DNA from: Ruania halotolerans
GTDB lineage: Bacteria > Actinomycetota > Actinomycetes > Actinomycetales > Beutenbergiaceae
Assembly: GCF_021049285.1 (NCBI RefSeq)
Contig: NZ_CP088017.1
Coordinates: forward strand, 1,685,380 to 1,749,379
DNA length: 64,000 nt
Direction: 5' to 3'
Shown: in pieces, positions 23,461-39,281 of the stretch
How positions within the stretch are numbered: position 1 is the first letter of the stretch
Layout: every line of letters starts with the position of its first letter
The notes under the pieces: generated by a model
Seen by the model: only the letters and a program-made list of their open reading frames with translations
Told to the model about the DNA's origin: nothing
The model's database searches: none
Made by a program: the position numbers and the translations under genes

Positions 23461-24297
23461 CTACCAGGCCGGAACGACCTCGATCCCGGCGCGCCGCAGC
23501 GCCCGGTGGAACACCTCGTCGCGGAGCAGCCGTAGCTCCCAGCGCCGCTTGCGCGCTTCCGCTGCGGGTAGCCAGTCCGCAGCCGAGGGCGGGGACGGGT
23601 GCACGATCAGTTCGGAGGTCCCGGCGGGCAGCCGGCGCAGCTGGTGCAGCACCTCGGTGCGCAACTGCCCGTAGCCGAGCACCATCGTGCCCGGTAGCCA
23701 CGAGCTGACCAGCACCTCCGGCAGCCGCACCCGCAAGGTATCGGCTCGCTGCACGGCACTGCGGTGGGCGCGGCGAAGTCCGCGGACGGCCAGACCCAGG
23801 GTTCGGCTCAGCGTGCGAGGCATCCGGAAGTCCAGACCGTTCGCGGCGCAGAAGTCCACCGCCTGGCCTGCCATCGAGCGCCCATACAGCCCATACAGGG
23901 TGCCCGAGTGCGAGTCCAGCCCGGCCGGCCGCAGCCCGAGCTCGCGCATCCAGGTGAGCTGGGCGAGCAGTTCCCGGACCACGTCGGCCGCCGTGGCGCG
24001 CCGCTCGGCGTATGCGGGGTCGAGCGCGAACATCCCGCGGGCGTCGGTCAGTGTGCTGACTCCCGGGGTGATCGGGCGCCAGGGCGGCAGTCCCCGCGCG
24101 GAGGAGAACGTGATGTGCAGCCGGGGCTGAGTGAATCCGGCAGCCGTGAGCCGGCGAACAGCGTCCTCGGCAGCAGCGCCCACCGGGATGAGCGTGGTTG
24201 CCGAGACCACGCCCTCGCGCAGCAGCTCGACGATGGTCGCGTTCGTATCCGGATCGACGCCGAGGTCGTCCGCGGTGATCACGAGTCTGCGCTGCAT
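23461..24297 (-). CDS. ChbG/YdjC-like carbohydrate deacetylase
   Basis: The product has 278 residues from ATG 24297, preceded by GAGAAG. N-terminal RLVITADDLGVDPDTNATIV carries the metal-binding Asp pair, and LHITFSSARGLPP and GLDSHSGTLYG resemble the His-containing blocks of the YdjC family, which removes N-acetyl groups from chito-oligosaccharides or related sugars. In LHITFSSA the usual Asn or Leu next to the His is Thr. The C-terminus SELIVHPSPP matches the family HP motif. The substrate here is unknown. It is divergent from the LacI-controlled operon at 24593. Confidence 0.75.
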   Translation of the reverse strand: MQRRLVITADDLGVDPDTNATIVELLREGVVSATTLIPVGAAAEDAVRRLTAAGFTQPRLHITFSSARGLPPWRPITPGVSTLTDARGMFALDPAYAERRATAADVVRELLAQLTWMRELGLRPAGLDSHSGTLYGLYGRSMAGQAVDFCAANGLDFRMPRTLSRTLGLAVRGLRRAHRSAVQRADTLRVRLPEVLVSSWLPGTMVLGYGQLRTEVLHQLRRLPAGTSELIVHPSPPSAADWLPAAEARKRRWELRLLRDEVFHRALRRAGIEVVPAW

Positions 24298-24536: not shown

Positions 24537-24566
24537 TGGAATCGTTTCCAATGGAATCGTTTCCAA
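24537..24566. promoter_or_regulatory. Tandem LacI-type operators
   Basis: The 15-base word TGGAATCGTTTCCAA is repeated exactly and without a gap at 24537-24551 and 24552-24566. Each copy contains GGAA...TTCC, a palindrome of LacI-family type. It lies 27 bases before the LacI start at 24593, which makes autoregulation and operon control likely. Confidence 0.65.
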
Positions 24567-24592: not shown

Positions 24593-25729
24593 ATGGGCAG
24601 AGTGACCATCGCTGATGTGGCCAAGCGAGCCGGAGTCTCGCTCGCCTCCACCTCGCGCGCCCTGAACGGCCAGGTGGCCAGCGCCGCCACGGTGGAGAAG
24701 GTCCGCAAGGCCGCCACCGACCTCGGGTACATCCCCGATTCGGCCGCGCGCAGCCTGCGCACCCGCCGGACCGGCCAACTCGCCTTCGCCGTGGCGGATG
24801 TCGGCAACCCGGTCTACGTGGAGATGATGCGCGAGATCGAGTCCGTGATCGCCGCCGAGGACTACCGCCTCGTGGTCTCCCGCACCGGCGACGCCGCCGG
24901 CACGCTCGACCTGGTCCGCGATCTCAACCGCGGCTACGTCGACGGCCTCATCCTCTCCCCGCTGCGCGTCACCCCCGCGCTGGTGGACGCACTCGAAGCC
25001 TCCACCGTGCCCACGGTGGTGATCGGTCGCCTCCCCGAGAACACCCGCGTGGACACCGTGATGGCCGATTCCGAAGGGGGAGTGGCCCTGGCGGTGGACC
25101 ACCTCGTGGCTACCGGCGCCCGCCGGATCGCCTTCCTGAACGGCCCCGCCGATACCACTCCGGGAAAGTTCCGCCACGCCGGCTTCCTGCGCGCCACCGC
25201 CGAGGTCGGCGGCCTGACCACCGCAGAGTTCTCCGCCGAGGACTTCACTATCGACGCCGGGTACGCCGCCGCCGCGGCGATCTTCGACTCCGCCGAGAGT
25301 TCCTGGGACGCCGTGATCGCGGTGAACGACCTGGTCGGCATCGGCGTGATGCACGCCGCCGCGGAACACGGCCTCACCGTTCCAGAGGACCTGGCCGTGA
25401 TCGGCATCGACAACACCACCCTCGCCGACGTCTGCCACCCCGGCCTGACCAGCGTGGACCTCGGCTCTGCCCGACGTGGCCGCAAGGCCGCCCAGATGCT
25501 GCTCGCCCGGATGGACGATGCCGGCCTGGAACCGCGCGCTGTACGCGTCCCGCCCTCCCTGCACCTGCGCGGCTCCACTCACGCGCTGCCCAGTGCCCGG
25601 AAGGCGCCCCCGACGGCGGAGCCTCGCACCGCACGCAACCGCACCACGGGGCGAGCATCAGCAGCCCAGTCAACGCCGACGGCGAAGGGCACCTCTCCCC
25701 GAACGTCCGGTGAGGGGAGGGCACAGTGA
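24593..25729 (+). CDS. LacI family transcriptional regulator with long C-terminal tail
   Basis: From ATG 24593 (GGAGG upstream) the product has 378 residues. The HTH reads VTIADVAKRAGVSLASTSRAL, followed by the hinge and a periplasmic-binding-protein-like effector domain (LAFAVADVGNPVYVEMMREI, DAVIAVNDLVGIGVMHAA, VIGIDNTTLADVCHPGLTSV). The family is usually 330-345 residues. The last 40 or so here are a low-complexity Ala/Thr/Arg/Pro tail that runs up to the permease start. Adjacent tandem operators imply it represses the following operon until the imported sugar or a derivative binds. Confidence 0.88.
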   Translation: MGRVTIADVAKRAGVSLASTSRALNGQVASAATVEKVRKAATDLGYIPDSAARSLRTRRTGQLAFAVADVGNPVYVEMMREIESVIAAEDYRLVVSRTGDAAGTLDLVRDLNRGYVDGLILSPLRVTPALVDALEASTVPTVVIGRLPENTRVDTVMADSEGGVALAVDHLVATGARRIAFLNGPADTTPGKFRHAGFLRATAEVGGLTTAEFSAEDFTIDAGYAAAAAIFDSAESSWDAVIAVNDLVGIGVMHAAAEHGLTVPEDLAVIGIDNTTLADVCHPGLTSVDLGSARRGRKAAQMLLARMDDAGLEPRAVRVPPSLHLRGSTHALPSARKAPPTAEPRTARNRTTGRASAAQSTPTAKGTSPRTSGEGRAQ

Positions 25730-26676
25730 GCGCCCCCGCCCCAGCGCTGGCTCCGCCGTCGGGCGGCTCACCCCGCCGGAAGGCGGGCCTGGGCCCGCGG
25801 CAGAAGGCCGAACGCCGCGAGGCCATCGCCCTGGTGATCCCGGCCCTGCTGCCGATCATCGTCTTCTCGATGATCCCGCTGCTGGCGGGCGTCTACCTCG
25901 GGTTCACCAACGCCACCCTCGCGCGCAACGCCGAGATCGAATTCACCGGCTTCGACAACTTCGTCCAGCTCGCCGGGGACGAGCAGTTCTGGGACTCCTT
26001 CGGCATCGGACTGGTGTGGGCCGGGTCAGTGGCCGCACTCACCGGGATCAGTGCGATCGCGCTGGCGCTGCTGCTGAACTCCAAGCTGCGGTTCAAGTCC
26101 CTCACCCGGATCATCGTGCTCATCCCATGGGCGATGCCTCCGGTGGTGACCGGGATCTTGTGGCGGATGATCTACGACGTCAACTCCGGGCCGCTGAACG
26201 CAGCGCTGAGCTGGTTCGGGATCGACAAGGTGAACTGGCTCGGCGACTTCTCCACCGCGCTGCCGGCCGTGATCGTGGTGGGCATCTGGTCCGGACTGCC
26301 GCAGACCACCGTGCTGCTGCTGGCCGGGATGCAGTCCATTCCGGGAGAGCTGCACGAGGCCGCCGCCCTGGACGGGGCGAACGCCGCGCGCCGGTTCTGG
26401 CACGTGACCCTGCCGGGCCTGGCGCCGGTGCTGATCGCCATCACCAGCATCGACTTCATCTGGAACTTCAACGACTTCGGCATCGTCTACGTGCTCACCG
26501 AGGGCGGACCGGGCGGCCAGACCATGATCCCGCCCCTGTTCACCTATCTCGAGGCCTTCCGCAACCGCGAGATCGGCTACGCCTCGGCGATGGGCGACGT
26601 GCTCGTCCTGGCGATCCTGCTGATCCTGAGCATCTACCTGGTGAACCAGTTCCGGCAGAACAAGGAAGGGCGGTGA
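25726..26676 (+). CDS. ABC transporter permease, MalF type
   Basis: GTG 25726 overlaps the LacI stop (GTGA), with GAGGGGAGGG upstream. The 316-residue product has a basic cytoplasmic N-terminus, a first helix ALVIPALLPIIVFSMIPLLA, and the EAA loop LHEAAALDGANAARRFWHVT. It is the inner-membrane channel half for the binding protein at 27553. No ATPase gene is present, so a shared ATPase is assumed. Confidence 0.87.
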   Translation: MSAPAPALAPPSGGSPRRKAGLGPRQKAERREAIALVIPALLPIIVFSMIPLLAGVYLGFTNATLARNAEIEFTGFDNFVQLAGDEQFWDSFGIGLVWAGSVAALTGISAIALALLLNSKLRFKSLTRIIVLIPWAMPPVVTGILWRMIYDVNSGPLNAALSWFGIDKVNWLGDFSTALPAVIVVGIWSGLPQTTVLLLAGMQSIPGELHEAAALDGANAARRFWHVTLPGLAPVLIAITSIDFIWNFNDFGIVYVLTEGGPGGQTMIPPLFTYLEAFRNREIGYASAMGDVLVLAILLILSIYLVNQFRQNKEGR

Positions 26677-26683
26677 TGGACAG

Positions 26684-27529
26684 ATGAACACCAACATGAA
26701 GACGCCCTTGCCGGTGACCGTGCTGCAGTACCTGGCGCTCGGCGGCTTCCTGCTCTTCCTGGGCTTCCCGGTGCTGTGGATCGTCTCCGCCTCGTTCAAA
26801 TCCTCCGCGGAGCTGAACTCCCTGAGCGCGAACCTGATCCCGAACGAGTGGGTGTTCACCAACTTCACCACCGCACTCGAGCGGCAGAACCTGCTCACCT
26901 CGGCCGGCAACTCGTTCCTGGTGGCGGTGAGCACGATGGTGATCGCCGTGATCGTCACGCTGCCGATGTCCTACGCGCTGGCCCGGCTGCGCGGGAAACT
27001 GCGCGCCGCCGGCACCGTGTGGATCCTCGCCACCCAGGTGTTCCCGCAGATCCTGATCATCATCCCGTTGTTCCTGGTGCTGCGGACGTTGATGCTGAAC
27101 GACACCCTGCTCGGGCTGATCCTGGTCTACGTCACCTTCACGCTGCCGTTCACGCTGTGGATGATGCAGGGCTACGTGGCCGCCGTGCCGCGTGAGCTCG
27201 AGGATGCCGGCTCGATGGACGGCGCCAGCCGCTTCAAGGTGCTGGTGCACATCGTGTTCCCGCTGCTGCGCCCCGGGCTGATGGCCACCGCGATGTTCAC
27301 CTTCGTCTCGGCGTGGAATGAGTTCTTCCTCGCCCTCGTGCTGCTGCAGAGCCCGGAGCTGTTCACGCTCCCGATCACGCTGCGTGCCTTCCTCGGTGCC
27401 GAAGGGCAGACCCAGTTGGGTCCGCTCGCTGCCGGTGCCGTGCTCGCGACGATTCCCTCCCTGATCGTTTTCTCCTTCCTCCAGAAGAAACTCACCGGCG
27501 GAATGCTCGCCGGTGCCGTCAAGGGCTGA
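26684..27529 (+). CDS. ABC transporter permease, MalG type
   Basis: The 281-residue product begins MNTNMKTPLPVTVLQYLALG, with the MalG hallmark IVSASFKSSAELNSL after the first helix and the EAA loop ELEDAGSMDGASRFKVLVHI. Its C-terminus reads KLTGGMLAGAVKG. It pairs with the MalF-type permease 7 bases upstream. An in-frame ATG at 26696 is a possible alternative start. Confidence 0.87.
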   Translation: MNTNMKTPLPVTVLQYLALGGFLLFLGFPVLWIVSASFKSSAELNSLSANLIPNEWVFTNFTTALERQNLLTSAGNSFLVAVSTMVIAVIVTLPMSYALARLRGKLRAAGTVWILATQVFPQILIIIPLFLVLRTLMLNDTLLGLILVYVTFTLPFTLWMMQGYVAAVPRELEDAGSMDGASRFKVLVHIVFPLLRPGLMATAMFTFVSAWNEFFLALVLLQSPELFTLPITLRAFLGAEGQTQLGPLAAGAVLATIPSLIVFSFLQKKLTGGMLAGAVKG

Positions 27530-27552
27530 CACCCCAGAAAGAGAGATTCACC

Positions 27553-28839
27553 ATGAACAGCAAGAAGAGCATCGGCGCTCTCGCGCTGCTGACGGCAGGC
27601 GCATTCGCCCTGACCGCCTGCCAGCAAGGCAGCTCCAGCGGCGGCGGTGGTGGCGGCTCCGAGGACGGTGCCGTGACGCTGCAGTTCCAGTCCCTGTCCG
27701 ACCAGCCCGCCACCCAGGAAGCGGTCAGCTCAGCGGTGGAACAGTGGAACTCGGACAACCCGGACGTGCAGGTGGAGATCATCCAGGCCGGATGGGACGG
27801 CGCCTACGACAAGCTGATCACCCAGTTCACCGGCGGCACCGCACCGGACATCGTGCACTTCGACGGCGCCTCGATCGTCTCCTTCGCGCAGGACGGCTAC
27901 CTCGCCGACCTCTCCGGCGGGCTGAGCGAGGAGCGGATCGCGGATGTGCCGCAGGGCATCTGGGACGCGGTGACCGTGAACGAGGAGATCATCGCCTACC
28001 CCTCGACCCTGCAGTCCTACATCGCCTTCGCGAACGTCGACCTGCTCGAAGAGGCCGGCGTGGAGGTCCCCACCGGGGAGACGATGACCTGGGACGAGCT
28101 GGCCGAGATTGCCGAGGCCACCACCACCGATGACGTCTACGGCATCGGCTGGGGTCTCGGTTCCCCGGCTGCGACCGTGATGACCCTCGCGCCCGGGTTC
28201 GGGGGTGACTTCTTCTCCGGTACCGGTGAGGATGTGCAGATCGAGGTCGGCGACGCCGAGCTCGAGGTGCCCGAGCGGATCCACGAGATGGCGTACGAGG
28301 ACGAGTCGCTGGACCCGGTGAGCCTGACCCAGTCCGGTTCGGACGTGCTGGCCTCCTTCTACGGTGGCACCGTGGCGATGACCGTGCAGGGCTCCTTCCA
28401 GGCCACGAACATCGCCAATGACGCCCCCGAGGGCTTCAACTGGGTGGCGCTGCCGCCGCTGGAAGGCTCCGAGGGTGCGCTGCAGGCTGTGAACCCGCAG
28501 ACCTACTCGGTCAACATCGACTCCGAGCACGTGGACGAGGCGACGGCATTCCTGGACTTCTTCGCCTCGGGGGAGACCATGGCCGCGATCGCCCAGGCCG
28601 ATGCGCTGATCCCGGCCTCGGAGTCGGCTCGTGCGGTGGTTGCTGAGGAGACCGGTGGTGAGGACGGCTGGGATCAGATCCTGGCCTCCGCCGATGGCAT
28701 GGTCGGCGCCCCGTTCCTGCAGGCCGACGGGTACGCGGAGTGGAAGGAAACCACCCTGAACCCGGCACTGCAGCAGTACCTGGGCGACCAGATCGACTCC
28801 GAGCAGCTCGCACAGCAGCTCACCGACGGCTGGGGCTGA
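27553..28839 (+). CDS. Sugar ABC transporter substrate-binding lipoprotein
   Basis: This 428-residue lipoprotein has the signal MNSKKSIGALALLTAGAFAL and lipobox LTAC, followed by a Ser/Gly linker. The mature domain is a family 1 solute-binding protein (VTLQFQSLSDQPATQEAVSS, GGTAPDIVHFDGASIVSFAQ, YPSTLQSYIAFANVDLLEEA). It is the third transporter gene of the operon, followed by a strong stem-loop that may raise its expression relative to the genes behind it. The ligand is unknown, but the downstream ADP-ribosylglycohydrolase-fold enzymes suggest an N- or O-glycosylated small molecule. Confidence 0.87.
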   Translation: MNSKKSIGALALLTAGAFALTACQQGSSSGGGGGGSEDGAVTLQFQSLSDQPATQEAVSSAVEQWNSDNPDVQVEIIQAGWDGAYDKLITQFTGGTAPDIVHFDGASIVSFAQDGYLADLSGGLSEERIADVPQGIWDAVTVNEEIIAYPSTLQSYIAFANVDLLEEAGVEVPTGETMTWDELAEIAEATTTDDVYGIGWGLGSPAATVMTLAPGFGGDFFSGTGEDVQIEVGDAELEVPERIHEMAYEDESLDPVSLTQSGSDVLASFYGGTVAMTVQGSFQATNIANDAPEGFNWVALPPLEGSEGALQAVNPQTYSVNIDSEHVDEATAFLDFFASGETMAAIAQADALIPASESARAVVAEETGGEDGWDQILASADGMVGAPFLQADGYAEWKETTLNPALQQYLGDQIDSEQLAQQLTDGWG

Positions 28840-28846
28840 GTCCCAC

Positions 28847-28879
28847 CCCGCGGCGCCCGGACCAACTGGGCGCCGCGGG
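28847..28879 (+). terminator. 12-base perfect stem-loop after the binding-protein gene
   Basis: CCCGCGGCGCCC (28847-28858) and GGGCGCCGCGGG (28868-28879) pair perfectly around a 9-base loop. There is no T run afterwards. Its place between a binding-protein gene and downstream enzymes fits an attenuator or 3'-end protection hairpin that makes binding protein more abundant than the enzymes. Confidence 0.65.
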
Positions 28880-28927
28880 CCCGCACTCGGCGGCAGAATC
28901 AACATGACGATCGAATGGAGATCCAAC

Positions 28928-30097
28928 GTGAGTTGGCTGGAAGACCGAGTGGCAGGCGTACTCGCCGGAGCCGCCGTCGGTGATGCGCTCGGCGGAGCCA
29001 CCGAGGGCTGGACCCCCGAGCAGATCGAGGAGCGCCACGGCGGCAGGGTCACCGGCATCGTCGGCCCGTTCCTGCCCGATTGGCGCACCGCACGCCCGAT
29101 TGCGCCCTATCACAAGGGCGATGGGCACGTCACCGATGACACCTTGATGACGCACGCGCTGATCGAGGTGTACGCCACTCACCACACCCACCTGGACGCC
29201 TATCACATGGCCTCCGATCTGGTGCCGCTGATGCTCGGCGAGCGCCGCTGGGTGCCCGAGCTGGAGGATGAGGCGCTCATCCTGCAGCGGGTCTTCCTCG
29301 CTGAGAAGCACCTGGTGGCCAAGCTGCATTACGGCCACGTCGACCCGCGCGAGGCCGGGGTGGGCAACATCGTCAACTGCGGCGCCACCATGTACATGGC
29401 CCCGGTGGGGCTCGTGAACGCCGGCGATCCGGCCGGCGCTTATGCCGAGGCGATCGATTTGGCCGGGGCGCATCAGGTCTCTTATGGCCGGGAGGCCGCG
29501 GGCGTGTTCGCCGCCGCCGTCGCGGCCGCACTGGTTCCCGGCACGACGGCGGAGCGTGCCGTGGACGAGGCCCGTCGCCTTGCCCATGACGGCACCCGGG
29601 CCGCGATCGACGCGGTGCTCGAGGCCGTCGCCGCGTTCCAGGCCGCCGGGGGACTGGCCGCACACGACGAACGTGAGCTGAACCGGGTGCTGCGCGCCGC
29701 AGTGGCCCCGTTCGACACCGTGGGCGAGGAGTACCGCAAGCCGGCGATGGACGCCCGGCTACCCTCCCGCACGAAGTCGATCGAGGAACTGCCGGTCGCG
29801 CTCGGCCTCGTGGTCGCGCACGACGGGGACGCGCGCGGAGCGGTGCTTGATGCGGTGAACTACGGCCGCGACGCCGATTCGATCGCCACCATGGCCGGCG
29901 CCATCTGTGGTGCGCTCGCCGGCCGGGACGCGATCCCCGCCGAGTGGGTGGACGAGGTGACCCGGGCGAGCAAACTGGACCTGGACACCGTGATCACCTC
30001 GATGCACGCCAGCGTGCGTGCCATCGCCGCCGACGACGCCCGCCGGGCCCGGCAGCGCACCGAGGCCCTGAACGCCATGCTGGAGGAATCTGCGTGA
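28928..30097 (+). CDS. ADP-ribosylglycohydrolase-fold enzyme (DraG/ARH family)
   Basis: From GTG 28928 (GGAG 7 bases upstream; ATG 28904 is the alternative) the product has 389 residues. It begins SWLEDRVAGVLAGAAVGDAL and shows both acidic metal sites of the fold: GHVTDDTLMTHALIEVY and NYGRDADSIATMAGAICGAL. Family members remove ADP-ribose from proteins, but many bacterial members sit in sugar operons and probably cleave other N- or O-glycosides. In this operon, behind a sugar transporter, a small-molecule glycosidase role is more likely than protein de-ADP-ribosylation. It is coupled to the second such gene by GTGA. Confidence 0.82.
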   Translation: MSWLEDRVAGVLAGAAVGDALGGATEGWTPEQIEERHGGRVTGIVGPFLPDWRTARPIAPYHKGDGHVTDDTLMTHALIEVYATHHTHLDAYHMASDLVPLMLGERRWVPELEDEALILQRVFLAEKHLVAKLHYGHVDPREAGVGNIVNCGATMYMAPVGLVNAGDPAGAYAEAIDLAGAHQVSYGREAAGVFAAAVAAALVPGTTAERAVDEARRLAHDGTRAAIDAVLEAVAAFQAAGGLAAHDERELNRVLRAAVAPFDTVGEEYRKPAMDARLPSRTKSIEELPVALGLVVAHDGDARGAVLDAVNYGRDADSIATMAGAICGALAGRDAIPAEWVDEVTRASKLDLDTVITSMHASVRAIAADDARRARQRTEALNAMLEESA

Positions 30098-31572
30098 GAC
30101 TCACCTGGGCCCAGCCCGAGGACCTCGTCGCCCATGAGCTGGTGGCGCTGGCCGAACAGGGCGCCGACTCTGCGGCGCTCGAATCGGTGGCCCGCCGGTG
30201 GGAGGCTGCTGGTGGGTCGCTGCAGCCGGAGCGCTCCGGGGCGAGCGCCGAGGCGGCGGACCCCCAGCTGCGGCTGATCGCCCGCCAGGTGCTCGCCCAG
30301 CTGGCCGAGCTGGACACCACCGACCCGGCCGAACCTGATGACTGGGCGGACATCGCTGCTCAGATCACCGGGGAGATCGAAGGTACGCCCGCCGCAGGGG
30401 AGCGGGCGAGTTTCGATCGGGTGGCCGGTGCCTGGTGGGGCCGCTCCGTCGGCTGCCTGCTCGGCAAGCCGGTGGAGAAGATCCCCCGCGAGGGGATCGA
30501 GGAGATCGCGCGCGCGACCGGCAACTGGCCGATCCGCAGCTACTTCACCGCCCGCGGTCTGCCGGAGGACGTGGCGGCCCGGTGGCCGTGGAACCGCCGC
30601 TCGGCGCCCACCTCGCTGGTGGAGAACATCGACGGCATGCCCGAGGACGACGACCTCAACTTCCCGCTGCTGGCTCTGGACCTGCTGGAGACCCACGGGG
30701 ACGGGCTGACGACGAGTGACGTCGCGCAGTCCTGGCTGGCGAACCTGCCCGGCGGGCGCGTGTTCACCGCCGAGCGGGCCGCCTACCGCAACCTCCTCGA
30801 CGCCCGCGCGATCACCGAGACCGGGGCGTGCGAGACCGCCACGCATCTGAACCCGTTCCGGGAATGGATCGGCGCCCTCATCCGGGCCGACGTCTACGGC
30901 TGGGCCCACCCCGGCGACGTCTACGCCGCCGCCCGGCTCGCCTGGGTGGATGCCCGCCTGAGCCACACCCGCAACGGCATCTACGGCGCCATGTGGGCCG
31001 CCGCCCTGTGCTCGGCCTCCCTGGTGAGCACGAGCGTGGACGAGGTGCTGGATGCAGCCGAATCCGTGCTGCCCCCGGCCTCCCGGCTGCTCGAGGCCGT
31101 CCGCTCCGGCCGTGCGGCAGGTGAGGACCTGCGCGAGGGCCGCATCGACGACGAGGAAGCACTCGACGCCCTGCAGGCCCAGTACGGTCACCTGCACTGG
31201 GTGCACACGCTGAACAACGCGGCCCTGATCGCCATGGCCGTGGCTGCCTCGGGCACCGCTCCCAGTCCCGCCGCCGGCACCGGCCCCGCACCCACCGGGG
31301 GTGAGGTTGCCGTCGATGATCGGCCCATCACCGACGTCAACTTCACCCGCGGCATCACCCTCGCCGTAGCCGCCGGCTGGGACACCGACTCCGCCGGCGC
31401 CACCGTCGGCTCCGTCCTCGGCGCCCTGACTGGCAAGTCCGGTCTCGACCCTGCCTGGACCGATCCCCTGCACGGCCGCCTGCACACCTCCCTGCCCGGC
31501 CCGCAGACCCATGAGCTGGACGAGCTCGCCTCCCGCACCCACACGCTGTCTGATCGGATGATGACCTCATGA
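30094..31572 (+). CDS. Second, divergent ADP-ribosylglycohydrolase-fold protein
   Basis: GTG 30094 overlaps the previous stop. The 492-residue product has a helical N-terminal extension of about 120 residues (EDLVAHELVALAEQGADSAA) before the fold starts at FDRVAGAWWGRSVGCLLGKP. Metal-site motifs are MPEDDDLNFPLLALDLLE and AAGWDTDSAGATVGSVLGAL, so the acidic residues are kept while the surrounding sequence differs from its neighbour. Low-complexity Pro/Ala stretch near 405-420. Two unlike copies in one operon suggest two glycosidic bonds, or a complex with one subunit altered for recognition. Confidence 0.8.
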   Translation: MRLTWAQPEDLVAHELVALAEQGADSAALESVARRWEAAGGSLQPERSGASAEAADPQLRLIARQVLAQLAELDTTDPAEPDDWADIAAQITGEIEGTPAAGERASFDRVAGAWWGRSVGCLLGKPVEKIPREGIEEIARATGNWPIRSYFTARGLPEDVAARWPWNRRSAPTSLVENIDGMPEDDDLNFPLLALDLLETHGDGLTTSDVAQSWLANLPGGRVFTAERAAYRNLLDARAITETGACETATHLNPFREWIGALIRADVYGWAHPGDVYAAARLAWVDARLSHTRNGIYGAMWAAALCSASLVSTSVDEVLDAAESVLPPASRLLEAVRSGRAAGEDLREGRIDDEEALDALQAQYGHLHWVHTLNNAALIAMAVAASGTAPSPAAGTGPAPTGGEVAVDDRPITDVNFTRGITLAVAAGWDTDSAGATVGSVLGALTGKSGLDPAWTDPLHGRLHTSLPGPQTHELDELASRTHTLSDRMMTS

Positions 31573-33551
31573 GCGGCGGCTTCGACCCCCTCGTCCCACG
31601 CCCCCTCGACCTCCCCACCGAGGTCCCGCTGACCGGCGACCTCACAAGTGGCGAAGTTGCCGAGGCGCTGGATGAGGCGAAGATCCTCGCCGCCCCCGGC
31701 ACCCAGACCGACCCGCCCGACCAGGCCACCCTGGACGCTTGGCGCAAGCAGCTCCACGCCTGGCGCTCCGGCGCTCTCGCCCGGTACGGCACGCCCACCC
31801 GCTATGACGCCTCGGAAGCCCAGTGGGCCAACCGCTGCTTCACCGTGGCGCAGACCTGGCTGTGGGATGAGTTGTTCTTCGACTTCGAGCGTCAGGCCTT
31901 CACCCCGGAGCGGTTCCTCGCCGACGCCCAGGAACGCTTCGGCGGCCTCGACGGCGTCGTGCTCTGGCACGCCTACCCGATCATCGGCATCGACGAGCGC
32001 AACCAATGGGACTTCTATCGGATACCGGGCCTGGCCGAGGCCGCCGCCACCCTGCATGAGCACGGGGTCGCGGTGTTCGTCGACTACAACCCGTGGGATA
32101 CCGGCACCCGCCGCACCGGCAACACCGACGCCGAAGATCTCGCCACCGTGGTCCGCCACCTGAACGCCGACGGCGTCTTCCTCGACACCCTGAAGAAGGC
32201 CGACCCGGAGTTCGTGGCCGCGATGGAGGCGGCGCGCCCGGGCATCGGCCTGGAGGGGGAGTCGAAGCTGGTGACCGAGCGGGTCGCCGACCACGCACTC
32301 TCCTGGGCGCAGTGGTTCGCCGACTCCGAGATCCCTGGGGTGCTGCGGGCGCGGTGGTTCGAGCGCCGGCACATGCAGCACCACATCCGCCGCTGGAACC
32401 GCGACCATGCCGCCGAGCTGCGCTCTGCCTGGCTGAACGGCGTCGGCGTGATGGTCTGGGAGGTCGTCTTCGGCGTCTGGGTGGGCTGGAACGACCGCGA
32501 CGCCGCCACCCTGCGCCGGATGCTCCCCGTGCAACGCGCCATGCACCGCTGGCTCACCGACGGCGAGTGGACCCCGTTGGCCGTGTGCGAGCCGCCCGTG
32601 TTCGCCTCGACGTTCGAGCTCGACGGCGTCACCCTCTACACGTTGGTCAACACCAGCGACGAGGACGTCACCTACGCTTCCGGCCCCGGCACGTGGGTCA
32701 CCTTCGACGGCCCGCTCCAGCACGGGGAGGCCGAGGTGATCGTGCCCGCCCAGGGCGTGGCAGCGCTGGTTCATCTCTCCGAGGGCGCAGCACTACCCGC
32801 CGAGGTCGCTGATGTTCACTTTGAGCCGCCCGTTCGCGACTCCTCGTTCCCGCACCGGTGCGCGGTGCGGCTCAGCGCACCTTCCTGGACCGGCCCGACG
32901 GCGGAGCCCGCCACCGTGTCGGCGTTGCGTGCCGATGTAGTCGAGGTCCCCGCCGGCGAGCACGTCCTCACCGTCCGGCACCGCCAGCGCGAGACCGGCA
33001 TGTATGACGGCGCCCCGTACGTGGAGGAGTGGAAGCCCCTCCCGCCGCGCCTGCACGACCAGCGCACGCTCGAGCGCGTAGTGCAGATTCCCGACGGCGT
33101 CCGGGTAGCCTCCTGGGAGGTCTCGGCCGCCGAGTACGCCCAGTTCCTCAAGGCCATCGGCGAGGCACCGGACTCCGACGTCGATCCGGCTGCTGACCAT
33201 CCGGCGACGGGCGCTACCTTCGCCCGTGCCCGCGAGTTCGCCGCCTGGGCCGGTGGCCGATTGCCTACCGAGGACGAGTGGCAGTTGGCTGCGACTCGGT
33301 ACGGGTTCGAGCGCCGCACCCCTGCAGTGTGGAACTGGACCGAGTCGGAGCACTCGGATGGGCGCACCCGGTTCGTGATGCTCAAGGGCGGCGCCGAGCA
33401 CAAGAGTGAAGGCTCGGACTGGTACGTCGATGGGGGAGTGCAGTCCCCGGAGTTCGCGCTGAAGTTCCTGTTGCCCGGGCTGGGCGTGGACGCCTCGCCA
33501 TCGATCGGGTTCCGAGTCTGTTGGGACGCTGCCGAAAGGGAGCAACACTGA
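31569..33551 (+). CDS. Glycosidase-like protein fused to a formylglycine-generating-enzyme (FGE-sulfatase) domain
   Basis: The 660-residue product starts at ATG 31569 (ATGA overlap). Residues about 90-330 look like a TIM-barrel glycoside-hydrolase-like domain (LDGVVLWHAYPIIGID, GVAVFVDYNPWDTGTRRTG, DGVFLDTLKKADPEF, GIGLEGESKLV), with possible acids at the D and E of these blocks. A beta-rich region follows at about 340-400. The C-terminal 190 residues resemble FGE/SUMF1-like lectin-fold domains (VASWEVSAAEYAQFLKAI, ARAREFAAWAGGRLPTEDEW, NWTESEHSDGRTRFVMLKGG, SIGFRVC). The paired active-site Cys of true sulfatase-activating enzymes are not evident, so the domain may bind ligand rather than make formylglycine. 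Confidence 0.65.
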   Translation: MSGGFDPLVPRPLDLPTEVPLTGDLTSGEVAEALDEAKILAAPGTQTDPPDQATLDAWRKQLHAWRSGALARYGTPTRYDASEAQWANRCFTVAQTWLWDELFFDFERQAFTPERFLADAQERFGGLDGVVLWHAYPIIGIDERNQWDFYRIPGLAEAAATLHEHGVAVFVDYNPWDTGTRRTGNTDAEDLATVVRHLNADGVFLDTLKKADPEFVAAMEAARPGIGLEGESKLVTERVADHALSWAQWFADSEIPGVLRARWFERRHMQHHIRRWNRDHAAELRSAWLNGVGVMVWEVVFGVWVGWNDRDAATLRRMLPVQRAMHRWLTDGEWTPLAVCEPPVFASTFELDGVTLYTLVNTSDEDVTYASGPGTWVTFDGPLQHGEAEVIVPAQGVAALVHLSEGAALPAEVADVHFEPPVRDSSFPHRCAVRLSAPSWTGPTAEPATVSALRADVVEVPAGEHVLTVRHRQRETGMYDGAPYVEEWKPLPPRLHDQRTLERVVQIPDGVRVASWEVSAAEYAQFLKAIGEAPDSDVDPAADHPATGATFARAREFAAWAGGRLPTEDEWQLAATRYGFERRTPAVWNWTESEHSDGRTRFVMLKGGAEHKSEGSDWYVDGGVQSPEFALKFLLPGLGVDASPSIGFRVCWDAAEREQH

Positions 33552-34738
33552 TGAGTACTCCGCTCGATGACCTGTTGGTAGTGGATGCGTCCACGCTGTT
33601 CGCCGGCCCGATGGCGGCGATGCACCTGGGCGACATGGGCGCCCGGGTGATCAAGGTGGAGCACCCGCAGCGCCCGGACCCCTCGCGTGGGCACGGCCCG
33701 TCGAAGGACGGGGAGAACCTGTGGTGGAAGACTCTCGGTCGCAACAAGGAGACCGTCACACTAGACCTGCACACCCCCGGTGGCGTGGAGGCGTTCCTGC
33801 GCCTGGCCGAGCGGGCGGATGTGGTGATCGAGAACTTCCGCCCTGGCACCCTGGAGAAGTGGGGGCTCGGGTACGAACAGCTGTCGGCGAAGAACCCGGG
33901 GCTCGTGCTGGCACGAGTGACCGGCTTCGGGCAGAAGGGCCCGTACCGCTCACGCCCAGGCTTCGGCACCCTCGCGGAGGCGATGAGCGGCTTCGCCGCG
34001 ATGACCGGCGAACCCGACGGCCCGCCCACGCTGCCGCCGTTCGGCCTGGCCGACGGGATCGCGTCCTTGACCACGGCGTATGCGGTGATGACCGCGCTGC
34101 ACCACCGAGCCCGCATCGGTACGGGGCAGGAGTTGGATATCGCGATCATCGAGCCGATCCTGGCGATGCTCGGTCCGCAGATCACCCGCTGGGACCAGTT
34201 GGGCACGGTGCAGCCGCGCACGGGGAATCGGTCGGCGAACAACGCCCCGCGCAACGCCTACCTGACGGCGGACGCGAAGTGGGTGGCGGTGAGTACGAGT
34301 GCGCAGTCGATCGCCGAGCGGGTGATGGAACTGGTCGGCCGGCCCGAGCTGACGTGCGAGGACTGGTTCGCCACCGGCGCCGGGCGTGCACACCATGCCG
34401 ATGAGCTGGACGAAGCGGTGGGGGCGTGGATCGCAGAGCGCTCCCGCGATGAGGTGGTGGCCGAGTTCGAACGGGTGCACGCCGCGGTCGCGCCGATCTA
34501 CGACGCCGGCGACATCATGGCCGACCCCCACTTCCAAGAGCTCGGCACCATTTACGGCATCGAGGACCCGGTGCTCGGTGAGATGAAGATGCAGGGCCCG
34601 ATCTTCCGGATGTCCGATGCGGAGTCGCGGATCGCTTGGACCGGCCGCACGCCGGGCGCGGATACCGAAGCTCTGCTGGGGGAGTTGGGCTTCTCCGCGC
34701 GGGAGATCGCGGATATGCGGGAGGAGGGCGCATGCTGA
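33551..34738 (+). CDS. CoA transferase, CaiB/BaiF (class III) family
   Basis: From ATG 33551, overlapping the previous stop by one base, the product has 395 residues. Typical family blocks are DLLVVDASTLFAGPMAAMHL, DMGARVIKVEHPQRPDP, NKETVTLDLHTPGGVEAFL, ADVVIENFRPGTLEKWGLGY and NRSANNAPRNAYLTADAKWV. These enzymes move CoA between carboxylic acids. Its start in a sugar-type operon next to a CoA-ester lyase suggests that a dicarboxylic or hydroxy acid released from the imported compound is activated here and then cleaved. Donor and acceptor are unknown. Confidence 0.88.
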   Translation: MSTPLDDLLVVDASTLFAGPMAAMHLGDMGARVIKVEHPQRPDPSRGHGPSKDGENLWWKTLGRNKETVTLDLHTPGGVEAFLRLAERADVVIENFRPGTLEKWGLGYEQLSAKNPGLVLARVTGFGQKGPYRSRPGFGTLAEAMSGFAAMTGEPDGPPTLPPFGLADGIASLTTAYAVMTALHHRARIGTGQELDIAIIEPILAMLGPQITRWDQLGTVQPRTGNRSANNAPRNAYLTADAKWVAVSTSAQSIAERVMELVGRPELTCEDWFATGAGRAHHADELDEAVGAWIAERSRDEVVAEFERVHAAVAPIYDAGDIMADPHFQELGTIYGIEDPVLGEMKMQGPIFRMSDAESRIAWTGRTPGADTEALLGELGFSAREIADMREEGAC

Positions 34739-35553
34739 CCTCGCTCTACGTCCCCGGGGACCGCCCCGACCGGGTGACCAAGGCACTCGCGTCCGGGGCG
34801 GACTGCGTGATCGTGGACCTCGAGGACGCGGTAGCACCCTCACACAAGCAACTCGCGCGGGAGTCGTTGGCCAAAGCCTTAGGCGGCGAGTTGCCCGTAC
34901 CCGTTCAGGTGCGCGTGAACGCGTGCGGCTCGGCATGGTACGAAGACGACCTGGCGGCGCTGGGGGAGTCAAACCCAGCTATTGGTGTTCGCCTGCCGAA
35001 GGTCAACGGCCCCGACGACGTCGCTGCCGTGCAGGACGCCCTGCCCGCTCGAGACGTGCACGCGTTGATCGAGACAGCCATCGGCGTAGAGCGATCCTTC
35101 GAGATCGCCAACGCCGGCGTGGCATCGGTGACCCTCGGCGAGGCCGACCTGCGCGCTGAGCTGGGTCTCGCCGCTGGCGAGCCGGGGGAGCCGGGCCTCG
35201 CATGGGTGCGCTCCCGGCTGGTCGTGGCCGCTGCAGCCGCCGGACTGCCGGCCCCACAAATGAGCGTGTGGGCCGACGTGAAAGACATGGACGGCCTTGC
35301 GAGGAGTTGCGCCACCGGCAAGGCGCTGGGATTCGTGGGGCGCTCGGCGATTCACCCGGCACAGCTCCCGGTGATCCGTGACGCCTTCCGGCCCACCGAG
35401 GCCGAACTCGCACGAGCCCGCGAGATCGTCGACCGCGTCGGCTCCGCCGAGGCCGACCGCGCAGGCACAGTCGTGCTTGAGGACGGGAGCTTCCTGGATG
35501 CGGCGATGCTCCGTGGTGCGCTCCGCGTGCATGGATCGACGGGTCGGGGTTAG
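34732..35553 (+). CDS. HpcH/HpaI/CitE family CoA-ester lyase
   Basis: The 273-residue product starts at ATG 34732, overlapping the CoA transferase gene by 7 bases. CitE-like motifs: SLYVPGDRPDRVTKALASGA, CVIVDLEDAVAPSHK, VRVNACGSAWYEDDLAAL, ALIETAIGVERSFE, TLGEADLRAELG and VGRSAIHPAQLPVI. The metal-binding acids and the Arg in the nucleotide-CoA site are present. Relatives split malyl-, citramalyl- or 3-hydroxy-3-methylglutaryl-type CoA esters into acetyl-CoA or a short acyl-CoA plus a keto acid. Last gene of the operon. Confidence 0.87.
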   Translation: MLTSLYVPGDRPDRVTKALASGADCVIVDLEDAVAPSHKQLARESLAKALGGELPVPVQVRVNACGSAWYEDDLAALGESNPAIGVRLPKVNGPDDVAAVQDALPARDVHALIETAIGVERSFEIANAGVASVTLGEADLRAELGLAAGEPGEPGLAWVRSRLVVAAAAAGLPAPQMSVWADVKDMDGLARSCATGKALGFVGRSAIHPAQLPVIRDAFRPTEAELARAREIVDRVGSAEADRAGTVVLEDGSFLDAAMLRGALRVHGSTGRG

Positions 35554-35664: not shown

Positions 35665-38100
35665 ATGGCACTCAAGAAGTCAGACCTCTACTCATCCCTG
35701 TGGGCGAGTTGCGACCAGCTGCGAGGCGGCATGGACGCCTCGCAGTACAAGGACTACATCCTCACACTGCTGTTCGTGAAGTACGTCTCCGACAAGGCCA
35801 AGACCGATCCCCATTCCCTGATCGACGTCCCCGAGGGTGGCTCCTTCGACGCCATGCTCGCAGCCAAGGGCGACAAGGAGATCGGCGACCGCTTCAACAA
35901 GGTCATTGGCCGCCTCGCCGAGGCCAACGGCCTGCGCAACGTCATCGACCAAGCCGACTTCAACGACGAGGAGAAGCTCGGCAAGGGCAAGGAGATGCAG
36001 GACCGCCTCTCCAAGCTCGTCACCATCTTCAACGACCTCGACTTCCGTGGCTCGCGCGCTGAGGGCGACGACCTGCTCGGTGACGCCTACGAGTACCTGA
36101 TGCGGCACTTCGCCACCGAGTCCGGCAAGAGCAAGGGCCAGTTCTACACCCCGGCCGAGGTCTCTCGGATCCTCGCCAAAGTCGTCGGCATCGGCAGTGA
36201 GACCCGGCAGGACCAGACGGTCTTCGACCCGGCATGTGGCTCTGGCTCGCTGCTGCTGAAGACTGCCGACGAAGCGCCGCGCGGCATGACGATCTACGGC
36301 CAAGAGAAGGACAACGCCACCTGGGCGCTGTCCAGGATGAACATGATCCTGCACGGCAACGAGATCGCCGAGATCGCCAAGGGTGACACGATCACGAACC
36401 CGCAGTTCACCAGTGGCACTCGGCTCAAGACCTTCGACTACGTGGTCATGAACCCGCCGTTCTCGGTCAAGTCGTGGAGCAATGGCCTGGAGAACCACTT
36501 CGACCGCTTCGAGTACGGACAGCCGCCGGAGAAGAACGGCGACTACGCCTTCCTGCTGCACGCGCTCAAGTCGCTCAAGAGCACCGGCAAGGCAGCGATC
36601 ATCCTTCCGCACGGCGTGCTGTTCCGGGGCAATGCAGAGGGCACGATCCGCAAGCGGCTTCTCAAGCAGGGCTTCATCAAGGGTGTCATCGGACTGCCCC
36701 CCAACCTGTTCTACGGCACCGGCATTCCAGCCTGCATCGTCATCCTCGACAAAGAGAACGCCGTCAGCCGCACCGGCGTCTTCATGATCGACGGCTCGAA
36801 GGGCTTCGTCAAGGACGGCAGCAAGAACCGCCTCCGCAGCCAAGACATCCACAAGATCGTCGACAGCTTCAACAAGCAGATTGAGGTCGACCGCTACTCG
36901 CGCATGGTGCCGATGAGCGAGATCGCCGATCCGAAGAACGACTACAACCTGAATATCCCTCGCTACATCGACTCATCCGAGCCCGAAGATCTGCAAGACC
37001 TCTCCGCCCACCTCTACGGCGGGATCCCGGACCGCGACCTCGACGCGCTGCACGAGTACTGGGAGCCATTCACGCAGCTGCGTGACCAGCTGTTCAAGCC
37101 GAACCGCACCGGCTATAGCGATCTCGCCATCGACGTCAGGGAAGTGCAGCAAGCCATCCTTGACGCCCCCGGATTCCACAAGCTGCGCGACGAAGTTACC
37201 GGCATCGTCGATGACTGGTTTGCCGCATGGCGCCCGCGGTTGGTCGAGATCAACGCCGACACCAAGCCCGCCGACCTGAACACCGCGATGAGCGAAGACT
37301 TCCTCGAGCGGTTCAAGCCGGTGCCGCTCCTTGACGAGTACGACGCCTACCAGCAGCTCATGACCTACTGGCACGACGTCATGCACGACGACGTCTTCCT
37401 GCTGATGAACGACGGCTGGGTCTATGCCGCCAAGCCGCGCCAGACCATCGCGGACAAGGAGCGGAAGCTCTCCGAGGATCCCGACCTCGAACTCGGAACG
37501 GGACGCAAGAAGACCAAGTACAAGATGGACCTCATCCCGCCGGCGCTGATCGTCGCCCGCTACTTCGCAGACGAGCAGGCCAAGGTCGACGATCTCAACG
37601 CTGAGCTTGAGTCCGCGTCCGCAGCAGTGACCGAACACGCCGAGGAGCACGGCAGCGACGAGGCTCTCCTCCCTGAAGCCACCAACGACAAGGGTGCCTA
37701 CACCAAGCAGCTCATAACCGCGGTGATCAAGGAGGCAAAGGTGAGCGGTGACCAGGAGATCCTTGAATGCGCCAACGCCGCCCTTGAGCTAGTGGACGCC
37801 GAGGCCGCATCCAAGAAGGCGGCTAAGGAGGCCCAGGTTGCTCTCGACACCTTCGCACTCAAGAAATACGGCGACCTCACCGAATCCGACGTCCAGTCGT
37901 TGGTACTCGATGACAAGTGGCACGGCACGATCACGATGCGGATCGACGGCGAGGTCAACGCACTGACGCTCGCCCTCGTTGCTCGGATCCAGCAACTCGG
38001 CGAACGTTATGCCGAGACCGTGGGCGACCTCGACGCCGAACTGGGGAAGCTCCAAGCCAGAGTCGCAGGACACCTTGCTGCGATGGGGGTCAAGTCGTGA
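35665..38100 (+). CDS. hsdM: Type I restriction-modification DNA methyltransferase (HsdM)
   Basis: The 811-residue product starts at ATG 35665. N-terminal helical HsdM_N region (KKSDLYSSLWASCDQLRGGM), then an N6-adenine methylase domain with motif I DPACGSGS at 188-195 and motif IV NPPF at 263-266, followed by FSVKSWSNGLENHFDRFEYG and QFYTPAEVSRILAKV. The C-terminal 250 residues are an extra charged helical region (DEQAKVDDLNAELESASAAV), longer than the usual 500-residue HsdM but seen in this subfamily. GC is visibly lower than in the upstream sugar operon. GTG of hsdS overlaps the stop. Confidence 0.92.
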   Translation: MALKKSDLYSSLWASCDQLRGGMDASQYKDYILTLLFVKYVSDKAKTDPHSLIDVPEGGSFDAMLAAKGDKEIGDRFNKVIGRLAEANGLRNVIDQADFNDEEKLGKGKEMQDRLSKLVTIFNDLDFRGSRAEGDDLLGDAYEYLMRHFATESGKSKGQFYTPAEVSRILAKVVGIGSETRQDQTVFDPACGSGSLLLKTADEAPRGMTIYGQEKDNATWALSRMNMILHGNEIAEIAKGDTITNPQFTSGTRLKTFDYVVMNPPFSVKSWSNGLENHFDRFEYGQPPEKNGDYAFLLHALKSLKSTGKAAIILPHGVLFRGNAEGTIRKRLLKQGFIKGVIGLPPNLFYGTGIPACIVILDKENAVSRTGVFMIDGSKGFVKDGSKNRLRSQDIHKIVDSFNKQIEVDRYSRMVPMSEIADPKNDYNLNIPRYIDSSEPEDLQDLSAHLYGGIPDRDLDALHEYWEPFTQLRDQLFKPNRTGYSDLAIDVREVQQAILDAPGFHKLRDEVTGIVDDWFAAWRPRLVEINADTKPADLNTAMSEDFLERFKPVPLLDEYDAYQQLMTYWHDVMHDDVFLLMNDGWVYAAKPRQTIADKERKLSEDPDLELGTGRKKTKYKMDLIPPALIVARYFADEQAKVDDLNAELESASAAVTEHAEEHGSDEALLPEATNDKGAYTKQLITAVIKEAKVSGDQEILECANAALELVDAEAASKKAAKEAQVALDTFALKKYGDLTESDVQSLVLDDKWHGTITMRIDGEVNALTLALVARIQQLGERYAETVGDLDAELGKLQARVAGHLAAMGVKS

Positions 38101-39281
38101 GCGCTGCGACGGTGCGCCTTGCCGATGTGACGACGCGGATCGGGAGTGGGATCACGCCTCGAGGCGGTTCCGCCGTCTACACGCCCTCCGGGCGACCGTT
38201 TCTTCGCAGCCAGAACGTTGGCTGGGGCGACCTTCGTCTCGATGACATGGCGTACATCGACGAAGCGACTCACTCGACGTTCCCAGCGACGGAGCTGCGC
38301 ACCGGAGACATCCTACTCAACATTACGGGTGCATCGATCGGCCGGTCAGCCGTTGCCACCCCGGAACTTGATGGCGGGAACGTAAACCAGCACGTCTGCG
38401 AGATCCGGCTTAGGCCGGGTCGGATGGACCCACACTTTGTGAACGCATTTCTCCTGTCTCGCGCGGGCCAAGACCAGATTGACATGTTCCAGGCTGGTGG
38501 CAATCGCCAGGGTCTGAACTTCCAGCAGGTCGGATCGATCAGTGTGCCCGACCTGGAGATTGGTCAGCAGCGGGCGGTCGGAGGGGCCGGCCGGGACGCT
38601 GATAACGGCATCGCTGGCTTGGAGCGGATGATCGCCAAGAAGCAGGCGATCAAGCAAGGCATGATGCAGCAGCTCCTCACCGGCACGACCCGCGTCCCCG
38701 GCTTCACCGTGCCCTGGCGCGACGTGACGCTTGGCGACGCCACTGACATCCTCGACAATCTTCGGATGCCGCTGAGTGGCGCGCAACGCGCCAACCGCAG
38801 CGGGCCGTTCCCATACTGCGGAGCGAACGGTGTGCTCGACCACATCGATGACTACATGATGGACGATGATGTCGTCCTTCTGGCCGAGGATGGCGGGAAC
38901 TTCGACCAATGGCGAACGCGCCCGATTGCGTATCGGATGAAGGGCAAGATCTGGGTGAACAACCACGCCCACGTCCTGAAGGCCACGCAGCCCGGAGACA
39001 CCGGTTTTCTCTTTTATTCGCTGCAACACAAAGACATCACGCCGTTCATCTCCAGCGGAACACGATCGAAGCTCACCCGTGGAGAACTGGTTCGCATCAA
39101 GGTTTCGATGCCCGACGAGGCGGACGAGCAGCGTGCAATCGCCGAGGTGCTTGGCGACGCTGATCGCGAGATCGGTCTGCTCCGTCAACGGCTCAGAAAG
39201 GCCCGATCTGTCAAAGCCGGCATGATGCAGGAGTTGCTGACCGGCCGAACCCGCCTGCCGATCGACGAGGGCGCAGCATGA
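38097..39281 (+). CDS. hsdS: Type I restriction-modification specificity subunit (HsdS)
   Basis: GTG 38097 overlaps the hsdM stop. The 394-residue product has two target-recognition domains. Each is followed by a matching conserved spacer: QRAVGGAGRDADNGIAGLER to MMQQLLTGTTRVP (158-201), and QRAIAEVLGDADREIGLLRQ to MMQELLTGRTRLP (345-388), both 44 residues long. TRD1 includes TPSGRPFLRSQNVGWGDL and DILLNITGASIGRSAV; TRD2 includes PYCGANGVLDHIDDY and LLAEDGGNFDQW. It determines the bipartite DNA target of the complex. The target itself cannot be read from sequence. Confidence 0.9.
   Translation: MSAATVRLADVTTRIGSGITPRGGSAVYTPSGRPFLRSQNVGWGDLRLDDMAYIDEATHSTFPATELRTGDILLNITGASIGRSAVATPELDGGNVNQHVCEIRLRPGRMDPHFVNAFLLSRAGQDQIDMFQAGGNRQGLNFQQVGSISVPDLEIGQQRAVGGAGRDADNGIAGLERMIAKKQAIKQGMMQQLLTGTTRVPGFTVPWRDVTLGDATDILDNLRMPLSGAQRANRSGPFPYCGANGVLDHIDDYMMDDDVVLLAEDGGNFDQWRTRPIAYRMKGKIWVNNHAHVLKATQPGDTGFLFYSLQHKDITPFISSGTRSKLTRGELVRIKVSMPDEADEQRAIAEVLGDADREIGLLRQRLRKARSVKAGMMQELLTGRTRLPIDEGAA

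Follow-up and report, generated by a model that had tools for sequence, protein, structure and literature searches.

Oligosaccharide ATP-binding cassette (ABC) operons of actinobacteria consist of a LacI-family regulator, a binding protein, two permeases, and glycosidases. The Rip itaconate pathway consists of a coenzyme A (CoA)-transferase, a hydratase, and the citramalyl-CoA lyase RipC. Here, we describe an operon of Ruania halotolerans that resembles each of these in part. It lies at positions 24593 to 35553 of a 64,000-nucleotide stretch, the window, which corresponds to positions 1685380 to 1749379 of a single 4,270,413-base contig (NZ_CP088017.1) that makes up the whole genome. The operon contains nine genes, encoding in order LacI, permease A, permease B, a binding protein, two ADP-ribosylglycohydrolase-fold proteins (DraG1 and DraG2), a fusion that we call GH-FGE (glycoside hydrolase-formylglycine-generating enzyme), the CoA-transferase CaiB, and the lyase CitE. 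From the sequence, we propose with a probability of about 0.5 that this operon is catabolic and serves a glycoside of D-ribose, or of a close pentofuranose, and a malate- or citramalate-type β-hydroxy acid. Its features are as follows.

24537..24550, strand not assigned: LacI-type operator copy 1 (TGGAATCGTTTCCA), a motif match just before lacI
24552..24565, strand not assigned: LacI-type operator copy 2 (TGGAATCGTTTCCA), in tandem with copy 1
24593..25729, + strand: LacI-family regulator (PF00356, PF13377); start codon putative, with in-frame ATGs upstream at 24551, 24566, and 24575
25726..26676, + strand: sugar ABC permease A (PF00528); best NCBIfam models UgpA and MalF, below cut-off; CUT1 type by reading
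26684..27529, + strand: sugar ABC permease B (PF00528); best NCBIfam models GlcU and MalG, below cut-off; CUT1 type by reading
27553..28839, + strand: substrate-binding protein (PF01547); relatives in the PDB are sugar-binding proteins, e.g., GacH; LTAC lipobox by eye
28904..30097, + strand: DraG1, ADP-ribosylglycohydrolase fold (PF03747, 3e-48); motifs VTDDT and GRDADS
30094..31572, + strand: DraG2, ADP-ribosylglycohydrolase fold (PF03747, 1.4e-39); motifs PEDDD and GWDTDS; N terminus extended by ~100 amino acids
31569..33551, + strand: GH-FGE fusion; C-terminal FGE/SUMF1-like domain (PF03781), N-terminal domain unclassified
33551..34738, + strand: CaiB, class III CoA-transferase (PF02515, 6.5e-114); Asp168 at the catalytic position
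34732..35553, + strand: CitE/RipC-type β-hydroxyacyl-CoA lyase (PF03328); Glu114, Asp139, and Asp256 conserved

The original prediction of nine consecutive genes agrees with the open reading frames (ORFs), but the stop-start overlaps that it described occur at only five of the eight junctions; the eight gene-to-gene distances are −4, 7, 23, 64, −4, −4, −1, and −7 bp. Pfam matches across the operon were LacI, two BPD_transp_1, SBP_bac_1, two ADP_ribosyl_GH, FGE-sulfatase, CoA_transf_3, and HpcH_HpaI, so that every gene receives an assignment except in the first ~400 residues of GH-FGE. These matches uphold the identities given earlier to the regulator, importer, two DraG proteins, FGE domain, CoA-transferase, and lyase; the glycosidase label is a different matter and is taken up below.

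The window operon shares the regulator and importer architecture of the oligosaccharide ABC operons, together with a tandem CG-centered LacI operator. It differs from them in that its hydrolases have the DraG fold and CoA-ester genes lie downstream. Its likeness to the Rip pathway is CoA transfer followed by lyase cleavage, with RipC as the closest model for the window CitE. Unlike that pathway, it has no hydratase, its CitE scores below the RipC cut-off, and a sugar importer and DraG-fold proteins are present.

DraG-fold genes also occur together in Streptomyces coelicolor, where SCO2026 is gltB (PMC9282665). SCO2028 to SCO2031 are given as uncharacterized DraG/ARH homologues (PMC9411070), and SCO2028 to SCO2030 are given as putative ADP-ribosyl hydrolases (PMC5087735). 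Neither SCO2028 nor SCO2030 showed detectable activity with synthetic U-α-ADPr (PMC13036486). The accessible text of PMC5087735 and PMC9411070 treats the SCO genes as putative ADP-ribosyl hydrolases, and that of all three papers on them mentions neither CoA genes nor a ribokinase. In locus L116 (genome G499), we found a gltB-like ORF followed by DraG3, DraG4, DraG1, DraG2, RbsK, CaiB, CitE, and lgt-like and trpA/trpB-like ORFs, with the gltB, lgt, and trp labels read from translations by eye. On the basis of synteny and numbering, not sequence comparison, we infer that this four-DraG form corresponds to SCO2028 to SCO2031, where four DraG-fold genes with consecutive numbers likewise lie close to gltB; the window instead carries two DraG genes together with GH-FGE.

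Two plasmid loci also resemble the window operon. The Mycolicibacterium arabiense locus (L159) has LacI, a DraG2 relative (36%), a substrate-binding protein, and permeases, and also a ribokinase; it differs in having one DraG gene and an ATPase gene, and neither a CoA-transferase nor a lyase is annotated there. In Sphingopyxis sp. FD7 (L157), a ribokinase (43% identity with the one in locus L036), a relative of GH-FGE (36%), a GH127-type protein, and a class III CoA-transferase are adjacent. This locus differs in that it has a TonB receptor and the GH127-type protein, a phosphoenolpyruvate mutase/isocitrate lyase-family protein is nearby, and no DraG or CitE is annotated. The Sphingopyxis run, which comes from another phylum, hints at a link between a pentofuranose and an acid activated by CoA. 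The original prediction knew of no characterized pathway with this gene set, and among the literature that we searched, mostly without subscription journals, no paper was recognizable as describing the combination. The operon is real and conserved and apparently undescribed; what is new is the way in which known families are combined.

We searched genome contigs with GH-FGE, obtained 180 relatives, and used the best 80; GH-FGE in L034 matched as two overlapping pieces. All nine genes are present in 74 of these 80 loci, in identical order in 73. The other seven loci lack the full set or have a changed order, with L041, L061, L080, L085, and L113 lying on short contigs or near contig ends; lacI has moved in L098, and LacI, DraG1, CaiB, and CitE were not found in L059. 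The genera represented include Ruania, Occultella, Microbacterium, Arthrobacter, Cellulomonas, Amycolatopsis, Nocardiopsis, Glycomyces, and Kribbella. Because these loci are the best of 180 and were picked by GH-FGE, their uniformity is partly a product of selection.

A sample of 394 genomes, drawn evenly across the class and not picked by GH-FGE, was searched with CaiB, DraG2, GH-FGE, and DraG4. We found CaiB ≤10 kb from 56 of 59 DraG2 orthologues (≥250 bits), against a chance expectation of ~0.3% for a gene placed randomly in a 7.5-Mb genome. The 250-bit cut was set after the list was viewed (252.2 was kept and 232 dropped), and none of the 25 dropped matches in this sample (<250 bits) had CaiB nearby. 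GH-FGE occurs in 20 of the 394 genomes, at 21 sites, and at 19 of these CaiB and DraG2 are both ≤10 kb away. These counts leave out the DraG2 fragments G010 and G427, the GH-FGE fragment G391, second DraG4 fragments, and DraG4 rows that are DraG3; alignments A1 to A5 were drawn from a subset of loci. Since gene order is kept across many families, the arrangement is beyond chance, and by this comparison the nine-gene set is a conserved operon. Thus, the co-occurrence of DraG and CoA genes on which the original prediction depended is borne out both by the 73 loci with identical order and by the proximity of CaiB to DraG2, and the gene order recurs in many genera and families and is not limited to one strain.

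Genome-wide (4.27 Mb) and with ≤1 mismatch, TGGAATCGTTTCCA matched solely the tandem pair before lacI, and a reversed-pattern control gave 0 matches. In 40 of the 80 GH-FGE-picked loci, lacI is preceded by an operator-type motif, covering two related patterns, with no further copies in those 40. Neither pattern matched in the remaining 40, some of which had weaker palindromes. We found no promoter-like sites, and terminator-like sites were no commoner than in shuffled sequence. The tandem operator fits a dedicated LacI regulator for a single operon, which LacI would repress until an inducer is present.

The acidic motifs x-D-D-T/D and D-x-D-S form the metal site of ADP-ribosylglycohydrolases. 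DraG1 and DraG2 scored 165.4 and 137 bits with PF03747 (gathering threshold, 26.2), and the metal-motif acids are invariant in alignments of 29 and 33 rows, respectively, and intact in the window proteins. A PF03747 search of the genome returned two genes, both within the operon. No signal peptide was seen by eye on the window DraG and GH-FGE proteins, and the LTAC lipobox, also read by eye, marks the binding protein as probably a lipoprotein; hydrolysis would therefore probably be cytosolic.

Many loci in the even sample carry two extra DraG-fold genes, DraG3 and DraG4, and all 24 DraG3 copies inspected retain intact metal motifs. Among the 59 DraG2 loci of that sample, 6 were scored as having GH-FGE only, 40 DraG4 only, 13 both, and 0 neither; G220 was scored as GH-FGE only, but its DraG4 is split over two contig ends, so it really has both. 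We rejected a mutual exclusion of GH-FGE and DraG3/DraG4 because 13 of 59 loci have both; the set that had suggested it, in which no locus has both, was selected for GH-FGE identity or for the absence of GH-FGE. The fullest form, L160, has 12 genes: LacI, PermA, PermB, SBP, DraG3, DraG4, DraG1, DraG2, RbsK, GH-FGE, CaiB, and CitE. Two small genomes also have a version of the operon, namely, the GH-FGE version in L118 (1.8 Mb) and DraG1-DraG3-DraG4 without DraG2 in L120 (1.3 Mb). DraG3 and DraG4 may form their own module. In L164, L165, and L166, a DraG4-DraG3 pair lies divergent to a LacI gene and sugar ABC genes of its own; CaiB is absent from the fetched stretch of L164 and L165, and CaiB-CitE lies ~8 kb from the pair in L166. 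In L178 and L179, a remote paralogue of DraG2 (266 and 273 bits, respectively) lies ~5 kb from an ORF that weakly resembles CitE (~127 bits).

The importer is of the sugar type by Pfam and NCBIfam, and the solved relatives of its binding protein are sugar-binding proteins. A PfkB kinase is present in 65 of the 80 GH-FGE-picked loci and lies between DraG2 and GH-FGE in loci that carry these two genes; 15 loci show no kinase, some of them being contig-end fragments. Ribokinase (TIGR02152) was the best NCBIfam model for all 12 operon kinases tested, three of which (L133, L140, and L160) pass its cut-off of 299.65 bits. This kinase suggests that the sugar is ribose or a pentose like it, and because most relatives add the kinase, the operon sugar is probably ribose.

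The catalytic residue of class III CoA-transferases is an Asp, and CitE/HpcH lyases use Glu and Asp as metal ligands, plus a C-terminal Asp. Consistently with this, Asp168 of CaiB (PF02515, 381.3 bits) takes the catalytic position in an alignment to 4ed9 and is invariant in 20 rows, and Glu114, Asp139, and Asp256 of CitE (PF03328, 104.7 bits) are invariant in 20 rows; the best PDB relatives of CitE are acyl-CoA lyases. Given how CitE-type lyases work chemically, the acid should have the form R-C(OH)(COOH)-CH2-COOH, as malate and citramalate do. Hydroxymethylglutarate (HMG) is a possible identity. Bacillithiol-type glucosamine-malate, apiose, HMG glycosides, and methanopterin fragments were weighed as candidate substrates, and we claim none of them. 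We dropped the idea that CaiB and CitE are the known itaconate enzymes because they missed the NCBIfam cut-offs.

We observed directly which genes are present, how they are conserved, their motif residues, the operator, and the kinase association; from these, the catalytic steps, regulation, and substrate can be inferred as follows. The binding protein and two permeases would import the intact compound, with the ATPase encoded elsewhere. Cytosolic DraG-fold enzymes, assisted by GH-FGE, would hydrolyze glycosidic or 1-O-acyl bonds. A ribokinase would phosphorylate the ribose; its gene is in the operon in most relatives and is perhaps C1:504533 in the window genome. CoA transfer would activate the freed acid, and the lyase would split the hydroxyacyl-CoA into acetyl-CoA and a 2-oxo acid. 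The flow given in the original prediction, from import through DraG cleavage and CoA activation to the lyase, is plausible, and we narrow its glycosylated compound to a pentose (probably ribose) conjugated with a hydroxy acid.

More tentatively, and leaning somewhat to the doubtful side, an actinobacterial branch of DraG/ARH proteins (DraG1 to DraG3 and perhaps DraG4, including SCO2028 to SCO2031) may comprise metal-dependent catabolic ribosidases, not ADP-ribosylation erasers, that, together with a new GH-FGE glycosidase family, degrade a so far unrecognized ribosylated hydroxy acid that is common in the environment. If this is true, genes assigned to ADP-ribosylation signaling would become catabolic enzymes, and annotation would be corrected in many actinobacteria, including Streptomyces. 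There would also be a widespread, so far unnamed natural compound of a pentose and a hydroxy acid, and the binding protein offers a way to fish it out.

Several observations weigh against a ribose-hydroxy acid conjugate. The second metal motif of DraG4 is degenerate. CaiB passed no NCBIfam equivalog (best, 209.7 bits versus 700), and CitE scored 139.9 bits with its best model, RipC, against a cut-off of 375. The Sphingopyxis CoA-transferase is only 31% identical and is not an orthologue. Nine of the 12 operon kinases, all from GH-FGE-picked loci, scored 228 to 280 bits, below the ribokinase cut-off; the window operon has no kinase, and the best match in its genome (278.8 bits) is also below it. 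These kinase scores would suit another furanose, such as apiose or arabinofuranose, with the PfkB kinase acting on that sugar, as would the 15 loci without a kinase, contig-end fragments included, and the GH127 β-L-arabinofuranosidase-like protein of the Sphingopyxis relative, which has no annotated DraG. We consider another furanose rather doubtful, given that ribokinase is nonetheless the best model for every kinase tested and three pass, and remote DraG2 paralogues have a ribokinase-like gene nearby in two of five loci (L155 and L159, not L177 to L179). The DraG proteins might instead be true ADP-ribosylation erasers that share the operon because ADP-ribosylation regulates sugar or CoA metabolism, as for DraG with nitrogenase. 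PF03747 membership, the intact motifs of DraG1 and DraG2, and the listing of the syntenic S. coelicolor genes, in the accessible text, as putative, uncharacterized ADP-ribosyl hydrolases (PMC5087735 and PMC9411070) would agree with erasers. We regard this role as quite improbable, since up to four DraG-fold genes share an operon with an importer, kinase, CoA-transferase, and lyase, and the annotated genes include no ADP-ribosyltransferase, although no search aimed at one was run; the lack of detectable activity of SCO2028 and SCO2030 on U-α-ADPr, one of many possible substrates, also argues against it (PMC13036486).

The operon might also handle two loosely related substrates, an ABC-imported sugar and a free acid that enters by another route, the CoA pair being cotranscribed for convenience. 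In the even sample, 56 of the 112 CaiB matches have DraG2 ≤10 kb away and 56 do not, the latter counting against a single conjugate. Three DraG2 loci have no CaiB ≤10 kb away (G439, G262, and G483, all of family f35); each genome has CaiB on another contig, and in G262, DraG2 is near a contig end. In L152 (G439), L154 (G483), and the Nonomuraea locus L156, a further ~9 to 10 kb held no CaiB or CitE at E ≤1e-5, which likewise counts against it. Because L152 and L154 lack both, the DraG and CoA parts are separable, at least within f35. CaiB-CitE pairs without DraG1 or DraG2 in the fetched stretch occur in L119, L124, L129, L162, L166 (with DraG3/DraG4 ~8 kb away), and L169. CaiB-CitE is accompanied by MmgE/PrpD, Asp/Glu-racemase-like, and FAD_binding_2-type flavoprotein genes in L124 (by Pfam), in L119 and L169 (by eye), and in part in L127, suggesting, in line with the proposed conjugate, that the acid is handled as its own unit. 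Such loci are perhaps a separate acid pathway, and their neighbors gave no identity for the acid. In the CaiB tree, which was built in quick mode with a midpoint root fixed by one long row, the DraG label needs four changes, two of them forced by starred branches. The DraG-linked rows are nested within a wider CaiB family, and therefore the acid module may well have existed alone. Thus, the possibility raised with the original prediction, that the CoA genes are separate, does not apply here and is partly true elsewhere, in f35 and in the CaiB-CitE loci without DraG1 and DraG2. As a rule, the CoA genes are part of the operon, with CaiB near 56 of 59 DraG2 orthologues and the operator at a single locus of the genome. 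Two loosely related substrates are unlikely in view of CaiB lying ≤10 kb from 56 of 59 DraG2 orthologues and CaiB-CitE ending the same operon in 73 of 80 loci.

As additional features of the CaiB-CitE loci, a branched-chain-amino-acid-type ABC importer is present in L119 and L124, a cyclase-like ORF in L119 and L127, and an amidohydrolase-like ORF in L124 and L127. The window CaiB has its nearest tree rows in Ruania and Occultella (family Ruaniaceae).

The N-terminal ~400 residues of the 660-residue GH-FGE had no Pfam match even at E ≤10 in five sequences. Against the PDB at E ≤10, this domain matched no glycosidase; only a designed protein (E = 0.001) and a phosphodiesterase (E = 0.98) were returned, both as short matches. 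No known glycoside hydrolase domain is recognizable by Pfam or PDB in the protein encoded at 31569 to 33551. The earlier glycosidase label is therefore tentative, and the domain is a possible new glycosidase domain. Formylglycine-generating enzymes need a catalytic cysteine pair. The FGE domain has no conserved Cys pair, with no Cys column above 23 of 43 rows, and we rejected GH-FGE as a sulfatase-activating enzyme on this ground.

A second GH-FGE, 51% identical, is encoded at C1:1759610-1761583 (L114:8611-10584), ~10 kb past the window. It adjoins LacI, ABC, PfkB, GH4, and DUF3604 genes, has no DraG, CaiB, or CitE match in its 20-kb stretch, and by its motifs is like the GH-FGE of the 12-gene operon L160. 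Outside actinobacteria, GH-FGE relatives 33 to 36% identical over about half of the query occur on the Sphingopyxis plasmid and on a Spirosoma plasmid (L158), both annotated as SUMF1/EgtB/PvdO nonheme iron enzymes. The Spirosoma relative adjoins a GH28 gene, and GH36 and Gfo/Idh/MocA genes are in the region.

On the other side of lacI and divergent from it, the minus strand of the window encodes a YdjC-like protein (carbohydrate deacetylase family) at 23461 to 24297. A type I restriction-modification methylase gene begins 111 bp 3′ of citE. It belongs to a set at 35665 to 43077, with HsdM at 35665 to 38100, HsdS in the ORF at 37917 to 39281, and HsdR at 39919 to 43077. Beyond HsdR are a YgjP-like peptidase and an SMC/AAA-type protein with weak matches to defense models (43777 to 46602). 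The G+C content of the stretch holding the restriction-modification set and the YgjP-like and SMC/AAA-type genes is lower, at ~0.61.

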